A DNA stretch of 33,786 nt, from the IMG/VR virus record IMGVR_UViG_3300035204_002166, positions 1 through 33,786 of that record, one strand, 5' to 3'. The position numbers were made by a program, and so were the translations under genes. This DNA comes from a virus. Under the pieces are notes generated by a model. It saw only the letters and a program-made list of their open reading frames with translations, was not told the DNA's origin and did no database searches. Numbering within the stretch: position 1 is the first letter of the stretch; every line of letters starts with the position of its first letter. Positions 888-30,352 of the stretch are shown in pieces.

Positions 888-934
888 ATTATCCTATTTT
901 AGGAAGCCGGCTTTATTTTTACAAATTTTATTTT

Positions 935-1786
935 TTAGACTACCGCTCTGCCTTTCTGGTTTTTCCAGTCTTTTTCTGGTCTATCTATTTCGTTATTTCT
1001 TTTAATGCTTGCCGCTAGTACACTTGCACCCTCATTGCCAATCCCTATTTTAGAAAATTGTTTTTGAAGCGCTGCGGTGTCTTTGGGGAAACAGGTTCCA
1101 CCAAACCCGCGCTTTCCGTCTGGCCCCGGAACTTGGGTGTGAGATTTGTTAATTCTTTCGTCTAAAACCACCATATCTTTCACGCGTTCATAATCAAGGT
1201 CTAGCGCTGTACAAAAATCATGAATTTCATTAAAAAAGGAGACCTTAACTGCTAAAAAACAATTTCTGGTATATTTCACCAACTCTGCTTCCTCTGTGGT
1301 CATAAAGTTCATTCTTGGTTTGTTATAAAGAATGTTACTATCATAGGCGGATTTAAAAACAGACCATAATTCGTCTCTTATTCGATCATTTCTATCATTT
1401 GTTCCTAATATCCAGTCGGTTTGATTGAGGAAGTCTTTCTTCCAGTTTTTTTCAGTTAAAAACTCAGGCATGAACATGGTGCCGAGCCTCTTTGATGTTC
1501 CCACGGGAACTGTTGATTTTATTATTATCCTTTCCGAATCGAAACCATGGTCTATTAGCTCAATAACAATCTTGTCTACTTGCACTGTGTTTGCGCTTCC
1601 ATCTAAATCCATTGGCGTCGGAACACATACAAATATAAAATCACAACAAGTCAAATCTTTTAGCTCTAAATCATAATGACTACATTTATGTGGATCCAAG
1701 TCGTAAACAAATAATTCAGTGCTATCACCTAGGAGGGCTGTTGCTCCCCCCACAAACCCGTTTCCTACTATGCCAATTGCTTTCAT
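935..1786 (-). CDS. Short UDP-glucose/GDP-mannose 6-dehydrogenase-like protein
   Basis: 283 residues. An N-terminal Rossmann NAD site (GNGFVGG, residues 8-14), the VCVPTP segment near 53-58 and the catalytic-cysteine motif GFGGTCFPKD (Cys232) identify the nucleotide-sugar dehydrogenase family, which oxidises UDP-glucose or a similar sugar nucleotide to a uronic acid. Family members are usually about 390-450 residues. Here the protein ends shortly after the central dimerisation region, so the C-terminal nucleotide-binding domain is missing, as in some phage and viral homologues; whether it is active is open. A good Shine-Dalgarno (GGAG) precedes the ATG, and the upstream gene's stop is one base away (TAACATG). 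The glycosyltransferases upstream suggest a shared role in glycan modification. Confidence 0.82.
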   Translation of the reverse strand: MKAIGIVGNGFVGGATALLGDSTELFVYDLDPHKCSHYDLELKDLTCCDFIFVCVPTPMDLDGSANTVQVDKIVIELIDHGFDSERIIIKSTVPVGTSKRLGTMFMPEFLTEKNWKKDFLNQTDWILGTNDRNDRIRDELWSVFKSAYDSNILYNKPRMNFMTTEEAELVKYTRNCFLAVKVSFFNEIHDFCTALDLDYERVKDMVVLDERINKSHTQVPGPDGKRGFGGTCFPKDTAALQKQFSKIGIGNEGASVLAASIKRNNEIDRPEKDWKNQKGRAVV

Positions 1787-10597: not shown

Positions 10598-11122
10598 ATG
10601 ACTATTCAAGATGCCTCAAACCAGCTATTTACTTGGTTCGAAGAAAACGACAACTTCGAGATTGGTAGAGATTTAAAAAAAATTCTGCCGATCATAGACG
10701 ACGAAGAGGCTACCCTCACCGCCTTTAAAATAGCCCTAGAAAAGCTAGAAGAAATGCAGCTTGTCGCCTCTAAGGATTACGCAGATAAGAAATATTATAT
10801 TCTCGAAAAACATATGGACGCGTTCCAACAAAATGTTGAGCTTGGCCCTTGGACCGCTAAGTTCGTGACTCAAGAAATTAACGAATTCTGCGAAATACTT
10901 CAGGATAATACAGACTTATGCCAAGCCTCTAGCATACAGGAAAAAGACGTAAGAAACCTTGTCCATGTAATCCAGTGGTATAAGGCTCGAATTCTTGAGA
11001 AAGAGCAAATCATCTCAGGGACAGCCTCCCTTGCCGCTCTTGCTGGTGACGCGTTAAACGGTATAGATAATAAAAAAGATGATGACGAAGGTAAAAATGG
11101 CAACAAAAAGAAGAAAAAATGA
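10598..11122 (+). CDS. Hypothetical protein, 174 aa, basic C-terminus
   Basis: Not recognised. Mostly helical and acidic (LFTWFEENDNFEIGRDLKKIL; ALEKLEEMQL), possibly winged-helix-like in the first 70 residues, with an alanine-rich helix (SGTASLAALAGDAL) and a charged tail NKKDDDEGKNGNKKKKK. A TATAAT sits three bases before the ATG, closer than usual for a promoter. Its stop overlaps the next gene's ATG (ATGA), so it is probably co-translated with the FKBP-like protein. Confidence 0.65.
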   Translation: MTIQDASNQLFTWFEENDNFEIGRDLKKILPIIDDEEATLTAFKIALEKLEEMQLVASKDYADKKYYILEKHMDAFQQNVELGPWTAKFVTQEINEFCEILQDNTDLCQASSIQEKDVRNLVHVIQWYKARILEKEQIISGTASLAALAGDALNGIDNKKDDDEGKNGNKKKKK

Positions 11123-11646
11123 GCGACGAAAAAAAAATAAATAAAGATTGGGAGAATTTTCAAAAAAAGCGAAACCCAGAGGCTGATCTAGATGCGGCGT
11201 GGGCTGGGTACAAGAAGAAGCTCAAGATTATATCAGACAAAGAAGCCTTAGAAATGGTCAAGGAAAAATCTAGAATCATTGAAGAGGGCACTGGAGAAAG
11301 AAACCTCCTCGAGCTAATGCCTCTTTGCAAGTTTAAGGGAGGGGCAAGTCGAGGGAAAAGATACATGAGGGCCACAATCGACTACTCAATAAGGCTAATT
11401 CAGGAAGAAAAAACACTAATAGAAAAGAAAAACCTCACAATTAACATACCCTCATTAAAGCCGGGTGCCTTTCCTAGAGGTCTCGAAATAGCCGTGAGCG
11501 AAATGAAGCCAGACGAACTCAGAAGCGTCATCCTCCCACCTGAATTAGCGTTTGGGGCTAAGGAGGGCATACCCGGTATCCCAGCGTTCTCAACTGTAGA
11601 CTTCGAAATAAGGCTAGTGAATGTTGACTGCGGAATAACGATCTAA
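11119..11646 (+). CDS. FKBP-type peptidyl-prolyl isomerase-like protein
   Basis: 175 residues. The C-terminal 110 residues follow the FKBP pattern: RYMRATIDYSIRL as the first strand, then RGLEIAVSEMKPDE, VILPPELAFGAKEGIPGIPA and a last strand STVDFEIRLVNVD. The N-terminal 60 residues are highly charged and helical. FKBPs catalyse proline isomerisation or act as chaperones. Key aromatic residues of the active site were not individually checked. It is directly followed by the structured RNA region. Confidence 0.75.
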   Translation: MSDEKKINKDWENFQKKRNPEADLDAAWAGYKKKLKIISDKEALEMVKEKSRIIEEGTGERNLLELMPLCKFKGGASRGKRYMRATIDYSIRLIQEEKTLIEKKNLTINIPSLKPGAFPRGLEIAVSEMKPDELRSVILPPELAFGAKEGIPGIPAFSTVDFEIRLVNVDCGITI

Positions 11647-12137
11647 AAAAATCTTGCTCATTGAAAAATTGATGGTAAGATTCTCAAAGTTCTTTGTTAG
11701 CGGTGAAATAGCTTGTGGAGGTTATCTCCACAGAACTCGTAAGAGACCACAGGCCCGTAAAAAGACCTTAGCCAACTAGACCTAATAAGTCTACTGTTAT
11801 TTCGGGAAAAAGCGACAGTTGAGGCTAATGTGAGTAGAAATACTCAAGCTAGAAACTTCATCCTCTCAAGAGGAAAAAGGATAAGCAGTCAAAAGAAAAG
11901 TCCCACCGCAGAAACAAAGAGCTCTATAGCTTAACAAGTCAGCGAGCGAGACTAAAAGAGGTTAACGCGACGGACTAAAGCGGCTTTGTTAAGAGTAAGA
12001 TTTATCTCCTAGTGGACAGCTATGTTCTTATCTCGAAAGCCTTACAGGCTTTCTCAGCTCAAAGGAAAAATTTAAAGGATAAGCAGTCATACACGAAGAT
12101 TGTTAGATTTAAAGTTTAAATAATTTTTATATAATAT
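11647..12137 (+). ncRNA. Large structured RNA candidate, family unassigned
   Basis: This 491-base stretch has no credible coding frame but many perfect hairpins: TGTGGAG/CTCCACA (11714-11732), TAGAC/GTCTA (11777-11793), GAGTA-GAAA-TACTC with a GNRA loop (11832-11845), CCTC-TCAA-GAGG (11862-11873) and GAAAGCC/GGCTTTC (12035-12053). A 16-base exact repeat, AAAGGATAAGCAGTCA, occurs at 11876-11891 and 12074-12089. The two ends can pair (AAUCUU at 11650-11655 with AAGAUU at 12096-12101; AUCUAA at 11641-11646 with UUAGAU at 12103-12108). The GNRA loop and flanking genes favour the plus strand. It does not match tmRNA, and no convincing RNase P or group I core was seen. Phage ornate RNAs such as GOLLD or ROOL are candidates I could not test. 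Confidence 0.65.
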
Positions 12138-12797
12138 ATGAACAAGATAATAGGTATATCAGGAGTAGCGGGTTCCGGTAAGGATACTTTCTGTGACTTT
12201 CTTTCAGCTAGACTACCCTGCGAAAGGTATTCCCTAGCTACTGAATTAAAAAACGAAGTCAATCAATGGTGCAGAATGCACTACCATATTGATTCCGTTA
12301 ACTGTAGTAGAGACGAAAAGGAGATCATTCGCCCGTTCCTCGTTGCTCACGGAACAACCAAACGTAAGCTTTCGGACGGTAGGCACTGGATTGAGAAGCT
12401 ACACAATAAGGTAATCAAAGGAAATCGTTCTAAATTTAAGATTATCACTGACATAAGGTATGATGACTACGAAAATGACGAGGTTTCTTGGTTAAAGAAC
12501 GAGCTTGGGGGCATACTTGTTCATGTCTCTCAATATACAATAGAAAATGCGGTCCACATAGAGAAACCCGTGAATTATATTGGTCCAACTAGGCGCTTTA
12601 GGGAGCCAGCAAACTCCGAAGAAGCCAGAAATGATCCTAATCTAAAAGAAAAAAGTGACTTTCAAATCGAATGGGAGTTTATTAAGAATGGTCAAATAGA
12701 ACAATTAGAACCATACATAAACGACTTTATGGCATGGCTAATCGGTGACCATGAAAAAGATAACACCAGCAGACAGCACTTTAATAAGGAAAGTTAA
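12138..12797 (+). CDS. Deoxynucleoside monophosphate kinase
   Basis: 219 residues. P-loop GVAGSGKDT at residues 9-17, followed by FCDFLSARLPCERYSLATELK, matching T4 gp1-like dNMP kinases, which phosphorylate dNMPs to dNDPs. The segment KFKIITDIRYDDYEND carries the conserved DIR motif. The ATG follows the structured RNA with no Shine-Dalgarno; a TATAAT only two bases upstream is too close to drive this start. It overlaps the sigma factor gene by 47 bases. Confidence 0.85.
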   Translation: MNKIIGISGVAGSGKDTFCDFLSARLPCERYSLATELKNEVNQWCRMHYHIDSVNCSRDEKEIIRPFLVAHGTTKRKLSDGRHWIEKLHNKVIKGNRSKFKIITDIRYDDYENDEVSWLKNELGGILVHVSQYTIENAVHIEKPVNYIGPTRRFREPANSEEARNDPNLKEKSDFQIEWEFIKNGQIEQLEPYINDFMAWLIGDHEKDNTSRQHFNKES

Positions 12798-13365
12798 AAA
12801 AAACGGATGCAATGAAAGTTACAAACTTCTAGCCAGCAGGCATGAAAAATTATTCTATAAAATATGTCAAAAATACATACCCGCAGCCTATACCAAGGGA
12901 ATTAAGAAACAAGACATCTTTAATGATAAAGATTTTGTAATATTCAAAGCACTCTCTTCTTACAAAAACAACAGAAAAACAAAATTCTCTACGTGGCTAG
13001 GAAACTGTACGAAATACTACTGCCTCGGCTTAATAAATGCCAACAACAGATATGTAAACTCTGAAGAAGAATTGCTACAGATAATACTAGACAGTCAATC
13101 AAGGCAAATACACGATCAAGAAATAAAGTATAAATTTGACAAAGAGTATGTTTTTAATATCTTAGATAACCTAAAAGACAAACGTATCTCTAAAGTATTT
13201 AAACTAAGGTTCTTCGACGAATCAAAGGAGAATAGAAAGCCGACTTGGAGTTTTATAGCTAAAGAAATAAACACTAGTACCCAGACAGCGATCAACCTAT
13301 ATAACAGAGGAAAGAAAATGCTTCACAAGAAAATAACCTCAAAACAATCTCAAGATATGATTTGA
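12751..13365 (+). CDS. Sigma70-family RNA polymerase sigma factor
   Basis: 204 residues from the ATG at 12751 (an in-frame GTG is two codons upstream). Region 2-like: YKLLASRHEKLFYKICQKY, then DKDFVIFKALSSYKNNRKTKFSTWLGNCTKYYCLG, containing the polymerase-binding and -10-recognition helices. Region 4-like: WSFIAKEINTSTQTAINLYNRGKKMLH. No region 1 or 3 domain is present, so it resembles small T4 gp55-type or ECF-like sigma factors that redirect host polymerase to phage late promoters. The target promoter sequence is unknown; the TATAAT-type sites listed here are more like host sigma70. Confidence 0.8.
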   Translation: MKKITPADSTLIRKVKKNGCNESYKLLASRHEKLFYKICQKYIPAAYTKGIKKQDIFNDKDFVIFKALSSYKNNRKTKFSTWLGNCTKYYCLGLINANNRYVNSEEELLQIILDSQSRQIHDQEIKYKFDKEYVFNILDNLKDKRISKVFKLRFFDESKENRKPTWSFIAKEINTSTQTAINLYNRGKKMLHKKITSKQSQDMI

Positions 13366-24516: not shown

Positions 24517-24946
24517 GGGGGCGTACTGGATTCGATTTGGATTCTTACGCCAGATTGCAAGCAGAGGATGATGGTTGGCCTCTTAAAACATCTATCAAAA
24601 AAACATAAATGCCAACGATAACGTTGACATGGAGTTCGCTCCTTCAGTAGCTGAAGCTGACGAGATTCTCGCCAAGTTCGGTTACGTTGAAGAGGAAGCT
24701 CTCCAACCGGTGGCATAAGTCCCACCGCGTCCTACTCTGGATGCTCGTTAAAGAGCTAGGGCGACGACAGCGAGCAAAAAACTGGAGCACGTAAGGGAGC
24801 CCAGTATAAATTTATTATGTCCTTTACAACCTCGTGTAGGCCGTTTGTCGGTGACATGCCAAGCGAGTATTAACACCGACTAAGCTTGTAGTATATCTGA
24901 GCAGATGGCTCTAAAGACGTGGGTTCGACTCCCACCGCCTCCACCA
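24517..24946 (+). ncRNA. ssrA: tmRNA with a 35-codon tag frame
   Basis: 430 bases. The 5' end GGGGGCG pairs with CGCCUCC near the 3' end, with G3-U70 for alanine charging; CUGGAUUCGA follows, and the T arm is GGGUUCGACUCCC, then an encoded ACCA. It is one-piece, not permuted. The tag frame starts at resume codon GCC (24611) after ATAAAT, encodes 35 residues beginning ANDN and ending EEALQPVA, and stops at TAA 24716-24718. Most bacterial tags are around 10-15 residues, so this is long; the PVA end is a plausible but not standard degron. tmRNA rescues stalled ribosomes; a phage copy may serve its own translation or alter the tag. Confidence 0.93.
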
Positions 24947-28260: not shown

Positions 28261-28812
28261 ATGAGACTAGACCACATAGCTTATAGGACAAACGATAGAT
28301 ATAAGACCGCATCCTTTATTCAAGAAGCTTTTGGATACAAAATTGGGACAGAATTTCAAATCGAATTCGACGACAAGTCTAAGGCCGACTGCCTAGCTCT
28401 AGTTCCGCCAGAAACAAGACATCCAGATACAGCGCTTTGGACTTATCATGCCTTACAAGCTGGCCCCTATGCCCCCATTAAAGCAGAGTATCATGCTCCT
28501 CCTGAGATTTTCGTTAGTGATGGTAGCGAAGGCTCAATTGTTGGAGACTGGGTAGCCGAAAGAGGAAATGTCGGCGGCATCCATCACATGGCCTACCAAG
28601 TAGAGGACGTAGAAGCAACCATGAACGAGTGGAAAGAAAAAGGATACGCGGAATTTTATTCCGAAAAGCCAATCACCTGCAAAGACCCCAACCTAACGCA
28701 GGTTTTCACCAAACCATCACAACTAACAGGAGTAATATATGAATTCATTAATAGAGAAGGCGCTGGGTTCTGCAAAGACAGCGTTAAAGAGCTTATGGAA
28801 TCAACCAAATAA
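28261..28812 (+). CDS. VOC/glyoxalase-fold metalloprotein
   Basis: 183 residues with two repeats of the vicinal-oxygen-chelate fold. Metal ligands by family pattern: His5 (RLDHIAY), His108/109 (GGIHHMAYQVEDV) and Glu161 (GVIYEFINR). The closest look is methylmalonyl-CoA epimerase/4-hydroxyphenylpyruvate-dioxygenase-like proteins; the exact reaction is not decided. It is ten bases upstream of an aldehyde dehydrogenase, so the pair may act in one short pathway. Confidence 0.78.
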   Translation: MRLDHIAYRTNDRYKTASFIQEAFGYKIGTEFQIEFDDKSKADCLALVPPETRHPDTALWTYHALQAGPYAPIKAEYHAPPEIFVSDGSEGSIVGDWVAERGNVGGIHHMAYQVEDVEATMNEWKEKGYAEFYSEKPITCKDPNLTQVFTKPSQLTGVIYEFINREGAGFCKDSVKELMESTK

Positions 28813-28822
28813 TTATCATTTC

Positions 28823-30352
28823 ATGAACTTCGAAGGCAGAAATTATATCAACGGCAAGTGGAAAGCCACTGCAGAAATGTACACCAAACTAAACCCTGCT
28901 ACCGGCAAAGCACAAGGGGCGTTTCCCCTAAGCGGTCACACGGAAGTGGAGATGGCGGTGGAGTCTGCGCGTAGAACTTTTCATAAATGGAAAAAAGTAA
29001 GCCGCTTTGTCCGTTCAGACTACATGTATAAAGTAGCTCAAATAATTGAACGCCGAAGAGAGGAGCTCGCAACCGTAATTTCCTTAGAGACAGGCAAAAA
29101 CTACAACGAATCCATAGCGGAGGTAAATGAAGCTTTACATATGGCTCAGTTTGCGTTTAGTTCTGGTAGATATTCCCACGGCGAAGCAGTTGCGTCTGAG
29201 ATAGAAGATAAAGATTGTTATATGCTGCGCAAACCGAAGGGTGTAATAGCTATTATATCTCCGTTTAATTTTCCATTAGCAATTGGAGCATATTGGTGCG
29301 CGGCACCAGCAATTGTAGAGGGAAATACGGTAGTAATTAAACCTAGTGAAGATGCACCAATGTCAACCCAAATGGCTGTCGAGATTTATAAGGAAGCTGG
29401 TCTCCCTGATGGAGTTGTTAGCTTGGTGCATGGGGTTGGTTGTACTGGTGATCTCTTGGCTCGCGCTGATGTGGATCATATTTGTTTTACTGGTTCTGCC
29501 GAAGTTGGTCAACACGTTAGAAAAGTAGCAGCCGAAAGTTGGCACAAGACGACCTCATGCGAAATGGGCAGCAAGTCTGCCTGTATTATATTTGATGATG
29601 TCGAAGCTAAACTTGCCCTAGAAGCAGCCATTGCAAGCGCGCACAAGCTCTCTGGGCAACGTTGTGTTTCTTCAGGCAGAATGATAGTACAAAGATCCAT
29701 TGTAGACCAATTCGCTAAAGACTTTGCCAGTGCTGCGTCTAACCTAAAAACAGGAAACCCTTTTGAAAAGGTAGTTAGCACCTCTGGCACACCAGACGCC
29801 GTTGGCTGGGTAGAATACAAGCCAGATGAGTCCATGAACTATGGCCCTCTAATTAATCAACAAGGTTTCGAAAAAGTTAAAAAATATAACGACATGGTCC
29901 TAGCTGACGCAGAAGCAGAGGTTTTACTTGAACCTAAATATGAGACTATAAATGATAGAGCATTTTTCTCTTCTTTTATGGTTTACAAAACCGAGTGGCG
30001 TGATGTACCTTATCTAAAGAATGAAGTGTTTGGGCCTCACGTTGCTATTATTCCTTTTGACGATCTCGATGACGCCATTCGTATCTATAATGATACTGAT
30101 TACGGGCTTGCGGTTGGTGTGCTTACGAACGATTTTAGAAAAGCACGAGTCTTACGGGACGAATGTGAAGCGGGAATGATTTACTGGAACGGTGGGTCCA
30201 TTGCCGCAGAGTCACATCTTTCTTTCGGAGGCGTAAAGAAATCTGGCAACGGATTTCCAAGCGCAGCCAGAACATACAGAGCAGTAACCCACGAAGTTAG
30301 CTGGACGGTAAACCACGCCGACAAGCTAACCTTCCCACAAGGAATGAAATAA
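28823..30352 (+). CDS. Aldehyde dehydrogenase (NAD(P)-dependent, ALDH superfamily)
   Basis: 509 residues from the ATG at 28823; an ATG at 28739 in the same frame lies inside the VOC gene and would add 28 non-conserved residues. Catalytic residues: Asn149 (SPFNFP), NAD motif GSAEVG (224-229), Glu247 (CEMGSKSA, where most have LELGGK), Cys281 (SGQRCVSSGR). The overall pattern is nearest to ALDH7/semialdehyde dehydrogenases. It oxidises an aldehyde to an acid; substrate unknown. The altered base region is worth noting. It appears to be a phage-carried metabolic gene. Confidence 0.88.
   Translation: MNFEGRNYINGKWKATAEMYTKLNPATGKAQGAFPLSGHTEVEMAVESARRTFHKWKKVSRFVRSDYMYKVAQIIERRREELATVISLETGKNYNESIAEVNEALHMAQFAFSSGRYSHGEAVASEIEDKDCYMLRKPKGVIAIISPFNFPLAIGAYWCAAPAIVEGNTVVIKPSEDAPMSTQMAVEIYKEAGLPDGVVSLVHGVGCTGDLLARADVDHICFTGSAEVGQHVRKVAAESWHKTTSCEMGSKSACIIFDDVEAKLALEAAIASAHKLSGQRCVSSGRMIVQRSIVDQFAKDFASAASNLKTGNPFEKVVSTSGTPDAVGWVEYKPDESMNYGPLINQQGFEKVKKYNDMVLADAEAEVLLEPKYETINDRAFFSSFMVYKTEWRDVPYLKNEVFGPHVAIIPFDDLDDAIRIYNDTDYGLAVGVLTNDFRKARVLRDECEAGMIYWNGGSIAAESHLSFGGVKKSGNGFPSAARTYRAVTHEVSWTVNHADKLTFPQGMK

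Follow-up and report, generated by a model that had tools for sequence, protein, structure and literature searches.

Among the biggest RNAs that still lack a known function are large structured RNAs of phages, for example ROOL and GOLLD. Both occur in phages and prophages, often close to tRNA genes, as large, stand-alone, pseudoknotted RNAs of unknown function (659 and over 800 nt), and both form RNA-only cages (PMC12286853). The locus presented here lies in a 33,786-base linear IMG/VR virus record (IMGVR_UViG_3300035204_002166), the whole of which is called the window hereafter. It encodes a DnaB-type helicase, a class I ribonucleotide reductase, a dNMP kinase and a sigma-like protein as well as four tRNAs and a tmRNA, and thus most probably represents part of the genome of a large tailed phage. 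No related phage or plasmid record was found in INPHARED or PLSDB. The gap between the FKBP and dNMP-kinase genes encodes, with near certainty, a real structured RNA of ~400 nt, located 4.9-7.5 kb from the tRNA genes of the window (Table 1). As for the surroundings of the RNA, the FKBP gene adjoins it in some relatives only; the sigma-70 region 2-like protein, which may direct phage transcription, had no match among the INPHARED phages; and a tmRNA above the Rfam cut-off was also present in 6 of the 12 related records.

Table 1. Features of the RNA locus and of other parts of the window, in window coordinates; promoter and RNA extent are inferred.
Feature	Position	Strand	Remarks
FKBP gene (FKBP-type prolyl isomerase)	11119-11646	+	upstream flank of the RNA gap
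Putative sigma-70-type promoter	11654-11681	+	TTGCTC (11654-11659), 16-nt spacer, TAAGAT (11676-11681)
RNA gene; inferred length of the mature RNA about 405 nt	11688-12092	+	block conserved in homologs
P1, 5′ strand GUUCUUUGUU	11689-11698	+	pairs with 11913-11922; swapped strands at least as good as native in 2/50,000 permutations
P2, 5′ strand GCGGUG	11700-11705	+	pairs with 11904-11909 (CACCGC); covariation count
P4, 5′ strand GCUU	11711-11714	+	pairs with 11810-11813 (AAGC), pseudoknot; 4/4 pairs with two-sided changes, 100% paired
P3, hairpin GUGGAG/CUCCAC	11715-11732	+	missing in the most divergent homologs
P5, 5′ strand CCCG	11754-11757	+	pairs with 11803-11806 (CGGG), pseudoknot; 100% paired
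P6, 5′ strand UUAGCC	11768-11773	+	pairs with 11823-11828 (GGCUAA); 6/6 pairs with two-sided changes, 100% paired
P7, hairpin UAGAC/GUCUA	11777-11793	+	5/5 pairs with two-sided changes, 93.9% paired; loop AAUAA conserved
P8, 5′ strand CUGU	11794-11797	+	pairs with 11815-11818 (ACAG); encloses the 3′ strands of P5 and P4
Module 1, arm 1 GCU-AGAAA-CUU	11848-11858	+	pairs with repeat copy 1; native vs. swapped arms 1/50,000
Module 1, hairpin CCUC/GAGG	11862-11873	+	covariation
Repeat copy 1 AAAGGATAAGCAGTCA	11876-11891	+	
P10, 5′ strand CUUAACAA	11930-11937	+	pairs with 11986-11993 (UUGUUAAG); 0/50,000 permutations as good
Module 2, arm 2 GACAGCU-AUGUU-CUU	12015-12029	+	complementary to both repeat copies
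Module 2, hairpin GAAAGCC/GGCUUUC	12035-12053	+	alignment; missing in divergent homologs
Repeat copy 2 AAAGGATAAGCAGTCA	12074-12089	+	near the inferred 3′ end
dNMP-kinase gene	12138-12797		downstream flank of the RNA gap
Sigma-70 region 2-like protein gene	12745-13365	+	beside the kinase, conserved throughout the lineage
tmRNA	24517-24946	+	RF00023 match; tag AEADEILAKFGYVEEEALQPVA
Aldehyde dehydrogenase family protein gene	28739-30352	+	phage-encoded

A sequence-only reading of the gap (11647-12137) had proposed a structured RNA of ~490 bases. The structured RNA proved real, but the first ~40 bases lie outside the conserved block (about 11688-12092) and resemble a promoter. The gap was rightly taken as non-coding, as no ORF of at least 60 aa occurs inside it, and a conserved protein frame, sought across the homologs because it would have refuted the RNA, was not found. 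The longest stop-to-stop stretch measured 41-75 codons in 22 homologs and 122 codons in L175, with no common length, and the indels of the homologs break the frame, their changes being compensatory. Hairpins were present, including GUGGAG/CUCCAC and GAAAGCCU/AGGCUUUC, together with the GNRA tetraloop (CUC-GUAA-GAG). By contrast, the pairing suggested for the ends of the gap, involving positions 11647-11661, was not conserved, the true closing helix being P1. The predicted fold had an energy of -122.2 kcal/mol, compared to -106 ± 5.4 kcal/mol for dinucleotide shuffles (z = -3.0), none of the 100 shuffles being as stable.

A total of 23 distinct full-length homologs were obtained from IMG/VR contigs by means of a kinase search, a sigma-like protein search and scans with conserved DNA patterns, the last of which recovered L172, L174 and L175. 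In the close phages, the RNA showed 85-93% DNA identity, compared to 57-72% protein identity for the adjoining kinase; the divergent homologs were L017, L020, L058, L062, L065, L104, L116, L172, L174 and L175. Moreover, a covariance model of the core (R1) matched exactly once per record in all 12 related records and found a further homolog that had been absent from model building (L021, 1584-1701, E 3e-6), which retains the core but shows no obvious copy of the 3′ modules. A scan of genome contigs gave 15 matches; on visual inspection, none had the flanking features of the RNA, and all seemed to be due to chance.

In the conserved fold, P1 and P2 close a first domain and P10 closes a second one; the fold further comprises a core and, towards the 3′ end, two modules that resemble each other. 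Helices P4 and P5 cross P6 and P8, so the core is a pseudoknot, and it bears invariant single-stranded motifs, among them CCGUnAAAAGnC directly after the 5′ strand of P5. Aligning the homologs, a check that the earlier reading had proposed, revealed extensive compensatory base changes. In the core (alignment A4), 97.9% of the pairing cells were paired and two-sided changes appeared in 22 of 29 pairs, values reached by none of 500 shuffles on either measure. Over the 51 pairs of alignment A2, 95.6% were paired vs. 84.5% in shuffles, and 32 pairs showed two-sided changes vs. 18.5 in shuffles, with no shuffle equalling either figure, while sliding the structure along the same alignment dropped the pairing to 39-47%. 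At the level of single helices, P5 changed from CG to UA in two homologs, and P8 occurred as CUGU/RCAG, ACGU/GCGU and GAGU/GCUU. Furthermore, P1 and P10 were tested free of any alignment by swapping strands between phages (50,000 permutations); it should be noted that such permutations treat related sequences as independent, so the fractions are not strict probabilities. Overall, the covariation seen in these comparisons is decisive for a conserved secondary structure.

Each of the 3′ modules is arranged as arm, CUU, hairpin, AAAG and repeat copy, the copy forming the 3′ strand. The repeat, the most unusual feature of the RNA, is the 16-base exact repeat noted earlier, and its two occurrences are indeed 198 bases apart. 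In each phage, one copy nearly duplicates the other, but the sequence itself varies with the lineage (AAAGGATAAGCAGTCA in the window, AAAGGAAGGCTGG in L017, AAAGCTGGGAGTCA in L020, AAAGCTAAGAGTCAGT in L058 and AAAGGCTGACAGTCAA in L104). The mean longest run shared by the copies was 13.8 nt within a phage vs. 6.1 nt between phages, and none of 100,000 permutations equalled the native copy-to-copy identity. As regards the arms, the native fit was better than the swapped one for all four combinations of arm and copy: out of 50,000 permutations, 1 and 20 did as well for arm 1 with copies 1 and 2, respectively, and 326 and 1049 for arm 2. This signal depends on the conserved anchors used for cutting the arms, as no signal appeared when they were cut otherwise, and the arms of L058 fit their copies poorly. 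In addition, the arms and copies share short cores, and therefore the pairing test cannot separate exchange from simple local pairing.

Two other ideas about the repeat were considered and rejected. The motif UUCUUAUC (12026-12033) was dropped as a single internal switch strand, since it is kept in L065 and L104 while the repeat changes. The reverse complements of some repeats resemble the 5′ halves of anticodon arms, e.g. L017 and tRNA-Gly UCC; nevertheless, position 37 would have to be a U for the window type, which is true of no phage tRNA that could match.

Further noncoding stretches were observed in other phages. Many of the more distant ones have a different structured RNA of ~450 nt ('type 2'), with the signature GCCCCGGCGTGTTGTGGTT, which in most cases occupies the same locus, 5′ of the dNMP-kinase gene: it was found in L161 (about 910-1380, minus strand), L138 (4573-5025) and L132 (4944-5414), and also in L115, L124/L164, L157, L109/L160, L165, L169 and L170. 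It matched neither the window family nor Rfam, and its consensus fold energy was -45 vs. -0.5 for shuffled columns. By eye, it ends in two similar A-rich copies that differ between phages (AGAAAAAUGU, AAAGGAAG, AAAAGCAG). A third kind of stretch, without an Rfam match, was found upstream of the kinase in L154 (2750-3232), L158 (4623-4965) and L126 (4838-5307), those of L154 and L158 carrying CCCCGTAATCTA.CGTCCGGCTCTGCT.

The explanation that we favour, tentatively and with a little less than even confidence when taken as a whole, is that a lineage of large phages carries a free-standing gene for a noncoding 'ornate' RNA, in which either repeat copy could serve as the pairing strand when the RNA switches conformation or assembles into multimers; this mechanism is inferred and untested. 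The host RNA polymerase would transcribe the RNA from its own promoter, and the product would act during infection as an RNA, alone or as a ribonucleoprotein, as inferred by likeness to ROOL and GOLLD. In the most speculative step, the two copies would be interchangeable partners of the two arms: each arm could pair locally with the copy of its own module, or arm 2 could take up copy 1 in an exchanged register, be it in the same molecule or in another one, and this exchange would act as a conformational or multimerisation switch. If the copies are interchangeable, they would therefore stay identical while their sequence drifts.

The main rival to this switch model, unlikely in our view yet still to be reckoned with, takes the copies as recognition sequences for one common trans-acting partner (an RNA of phage or host origin or a strand-reading protein), so that the arms would only mask them and the RNA would be a two-site guide, a sponge or a protein scaffold. 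Such a partner would suit copies that change in concert and whose identity, over 13-16 nt, exceeds what arm helices of 3-6 bp need; this excess also tells against the switch model. However, no complementary site with up to 2 mismatches was found in the 109-kb record of L104, the copies themselves excepted. Among six other records, only three had isolated sites with 2 mismatches, at chance level and in unrelated places, and the window holds no complementary site better than chance. This search covered partial contigs, and the host is unknown. A broader suggestion, for which our confidence is likewise low, treats the RNA as a device that is programmable or assembles itself, in which two identical, fast-drifting strands are the recognition element, either for RNA-RNA strand exchange, as a lineage-specific password, or for one lineage-specific target, the 'type 2' RNAs being independent versions of it.

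It seems improbable that the RNA is a highly diverged representative of an established large RNA class (ROOL, GOLLD, group I intron, RNase P RNA or tmRNA). The size, the pseudoknots, the phage location and the nearby tRNAs do recall ROOL and GOLLD. Nevertheless, the Rfam 15 search with the window and three divergent homologs, which carried out the covariance-model check proposed from the sequence, gave no match at the gathering threshold and only a chance match at E ≤ 5, thus naming no family, and an ordinary tmRNA is carried by the same phages. The large structured RNA of unassigned family that had been proposed is hence supported by both the compensatory changes and the lack of an Rfam match, and no account of the family was found in the literature searched. 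On these sequence grounds, the RNA is the founder of a new family contained in no Rfam entry.

A cis-acting leader of the dNMP kinase mRNA (riboswitch or attenuator), with the copies as alternative switch strands, is a still weaker candidate and is largely refuted by the varied gene contexts. In the window and in most close homologs, the kinase follows the RNA directly, and competing strands are a hallmark of attenuators. Against this, another gene separates the RNA from the kinase in L058, L062, L172 and L174; a tRNA gene comes next in L104 (4935-5007, plus strand, anticodon GCC by inspection), directly 3′ of repeat copy 2; in L021 the order is different, with the RNA upstream of a sigma-like gene; and the kinases of L116 and L175 appear from their sequences to have promoters of their own downstream of the RNA. 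As its downstream context varies between phages, the RNA is not read as a kinase-mRNA leader. The neighbouring gene w10598 was rejected as an obligate protein partner, since it is not beside the RNA in L172 and L174.

Transcription of the RNA probably begins at a sigma-70-type promoter of its own, with an inferred start site at about 11687-11689, although no expression data are available. The pattern TTG-N19-22-(TAnnnT or nATAnT), ending 4-14 nt before P1, was found in 20 of the 23 homologs vs. 2.3% of shuffles; the hexamers of the window itself are a weak match to the consensus, and its site is missing from the strict scan. No terminator-like site was found for the RNA, which also speaks against a leader, and therefore the 3′ end was inferred from the stop of conservation just after repeat copy 2. 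The position of the tRNA in L104 means that RNase P could set the 3′ end there.

Direct repeats that stay identical would also suit a DNA element, i.e. a site of recombination, replication or packaging, but this is hardly credible given the RNA-type compensatory changes throughout the element, the conserved promoter and the absence of the repeats from the rest of the window. Lastly, the RNA could be a template on which a reverse transcriptase jumps from one identical copy to the other, a mechanism of some defence-associated systems. This would require only copy identity, as observed, but is barely tenable, as no reverse transcriptase (PF00078) was found in 12 records of about 0.7 Mb in total.

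The family is well supported, with a likely promoter and a knotted core, and at ~400 nt it is short enough for ordinary biochemistry. Two copies that must match offer a direct handle on function, because mutations in one copy, in both copies, or in a copy together with an arm predict different outcomes for each mechanism.

In comparison with known systems, the RNA shares competing complementary strands with riboswitch and attenuator leaders, from which it differs in its own inferred promoter, the lack of a detected terminator and the lack of a fixed downstream gene. Group I introns and RNase P RNA are similar in size and in having crossing helices, but the RNA has no Rfam match to them, its helix order differs, and it sits between intact genes without interrupting any. 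The tmRNA is of similar length, has several pseudoknots and occurs in the same phages; however, RF00023 does not match the RNA, its only match in the window being the tmRNA gene listed in Table 1. With ROOL and GOLLD, it has in common being large, stand-alone, pseudoknotted, phage-encoded and near tRNAs, one of them directly 3′ in L104. On the other hand, it has no sequence or covariance-model match to either and is shorter, at about 400 nt, and duplicated near-identical 3′ strands are, to our knowledge, known from neither. By analogy, and with multimers only hypothetical, the RNA would resemble ROOL and GOLLD solely at the level of a 'large ornate phage RNA'.
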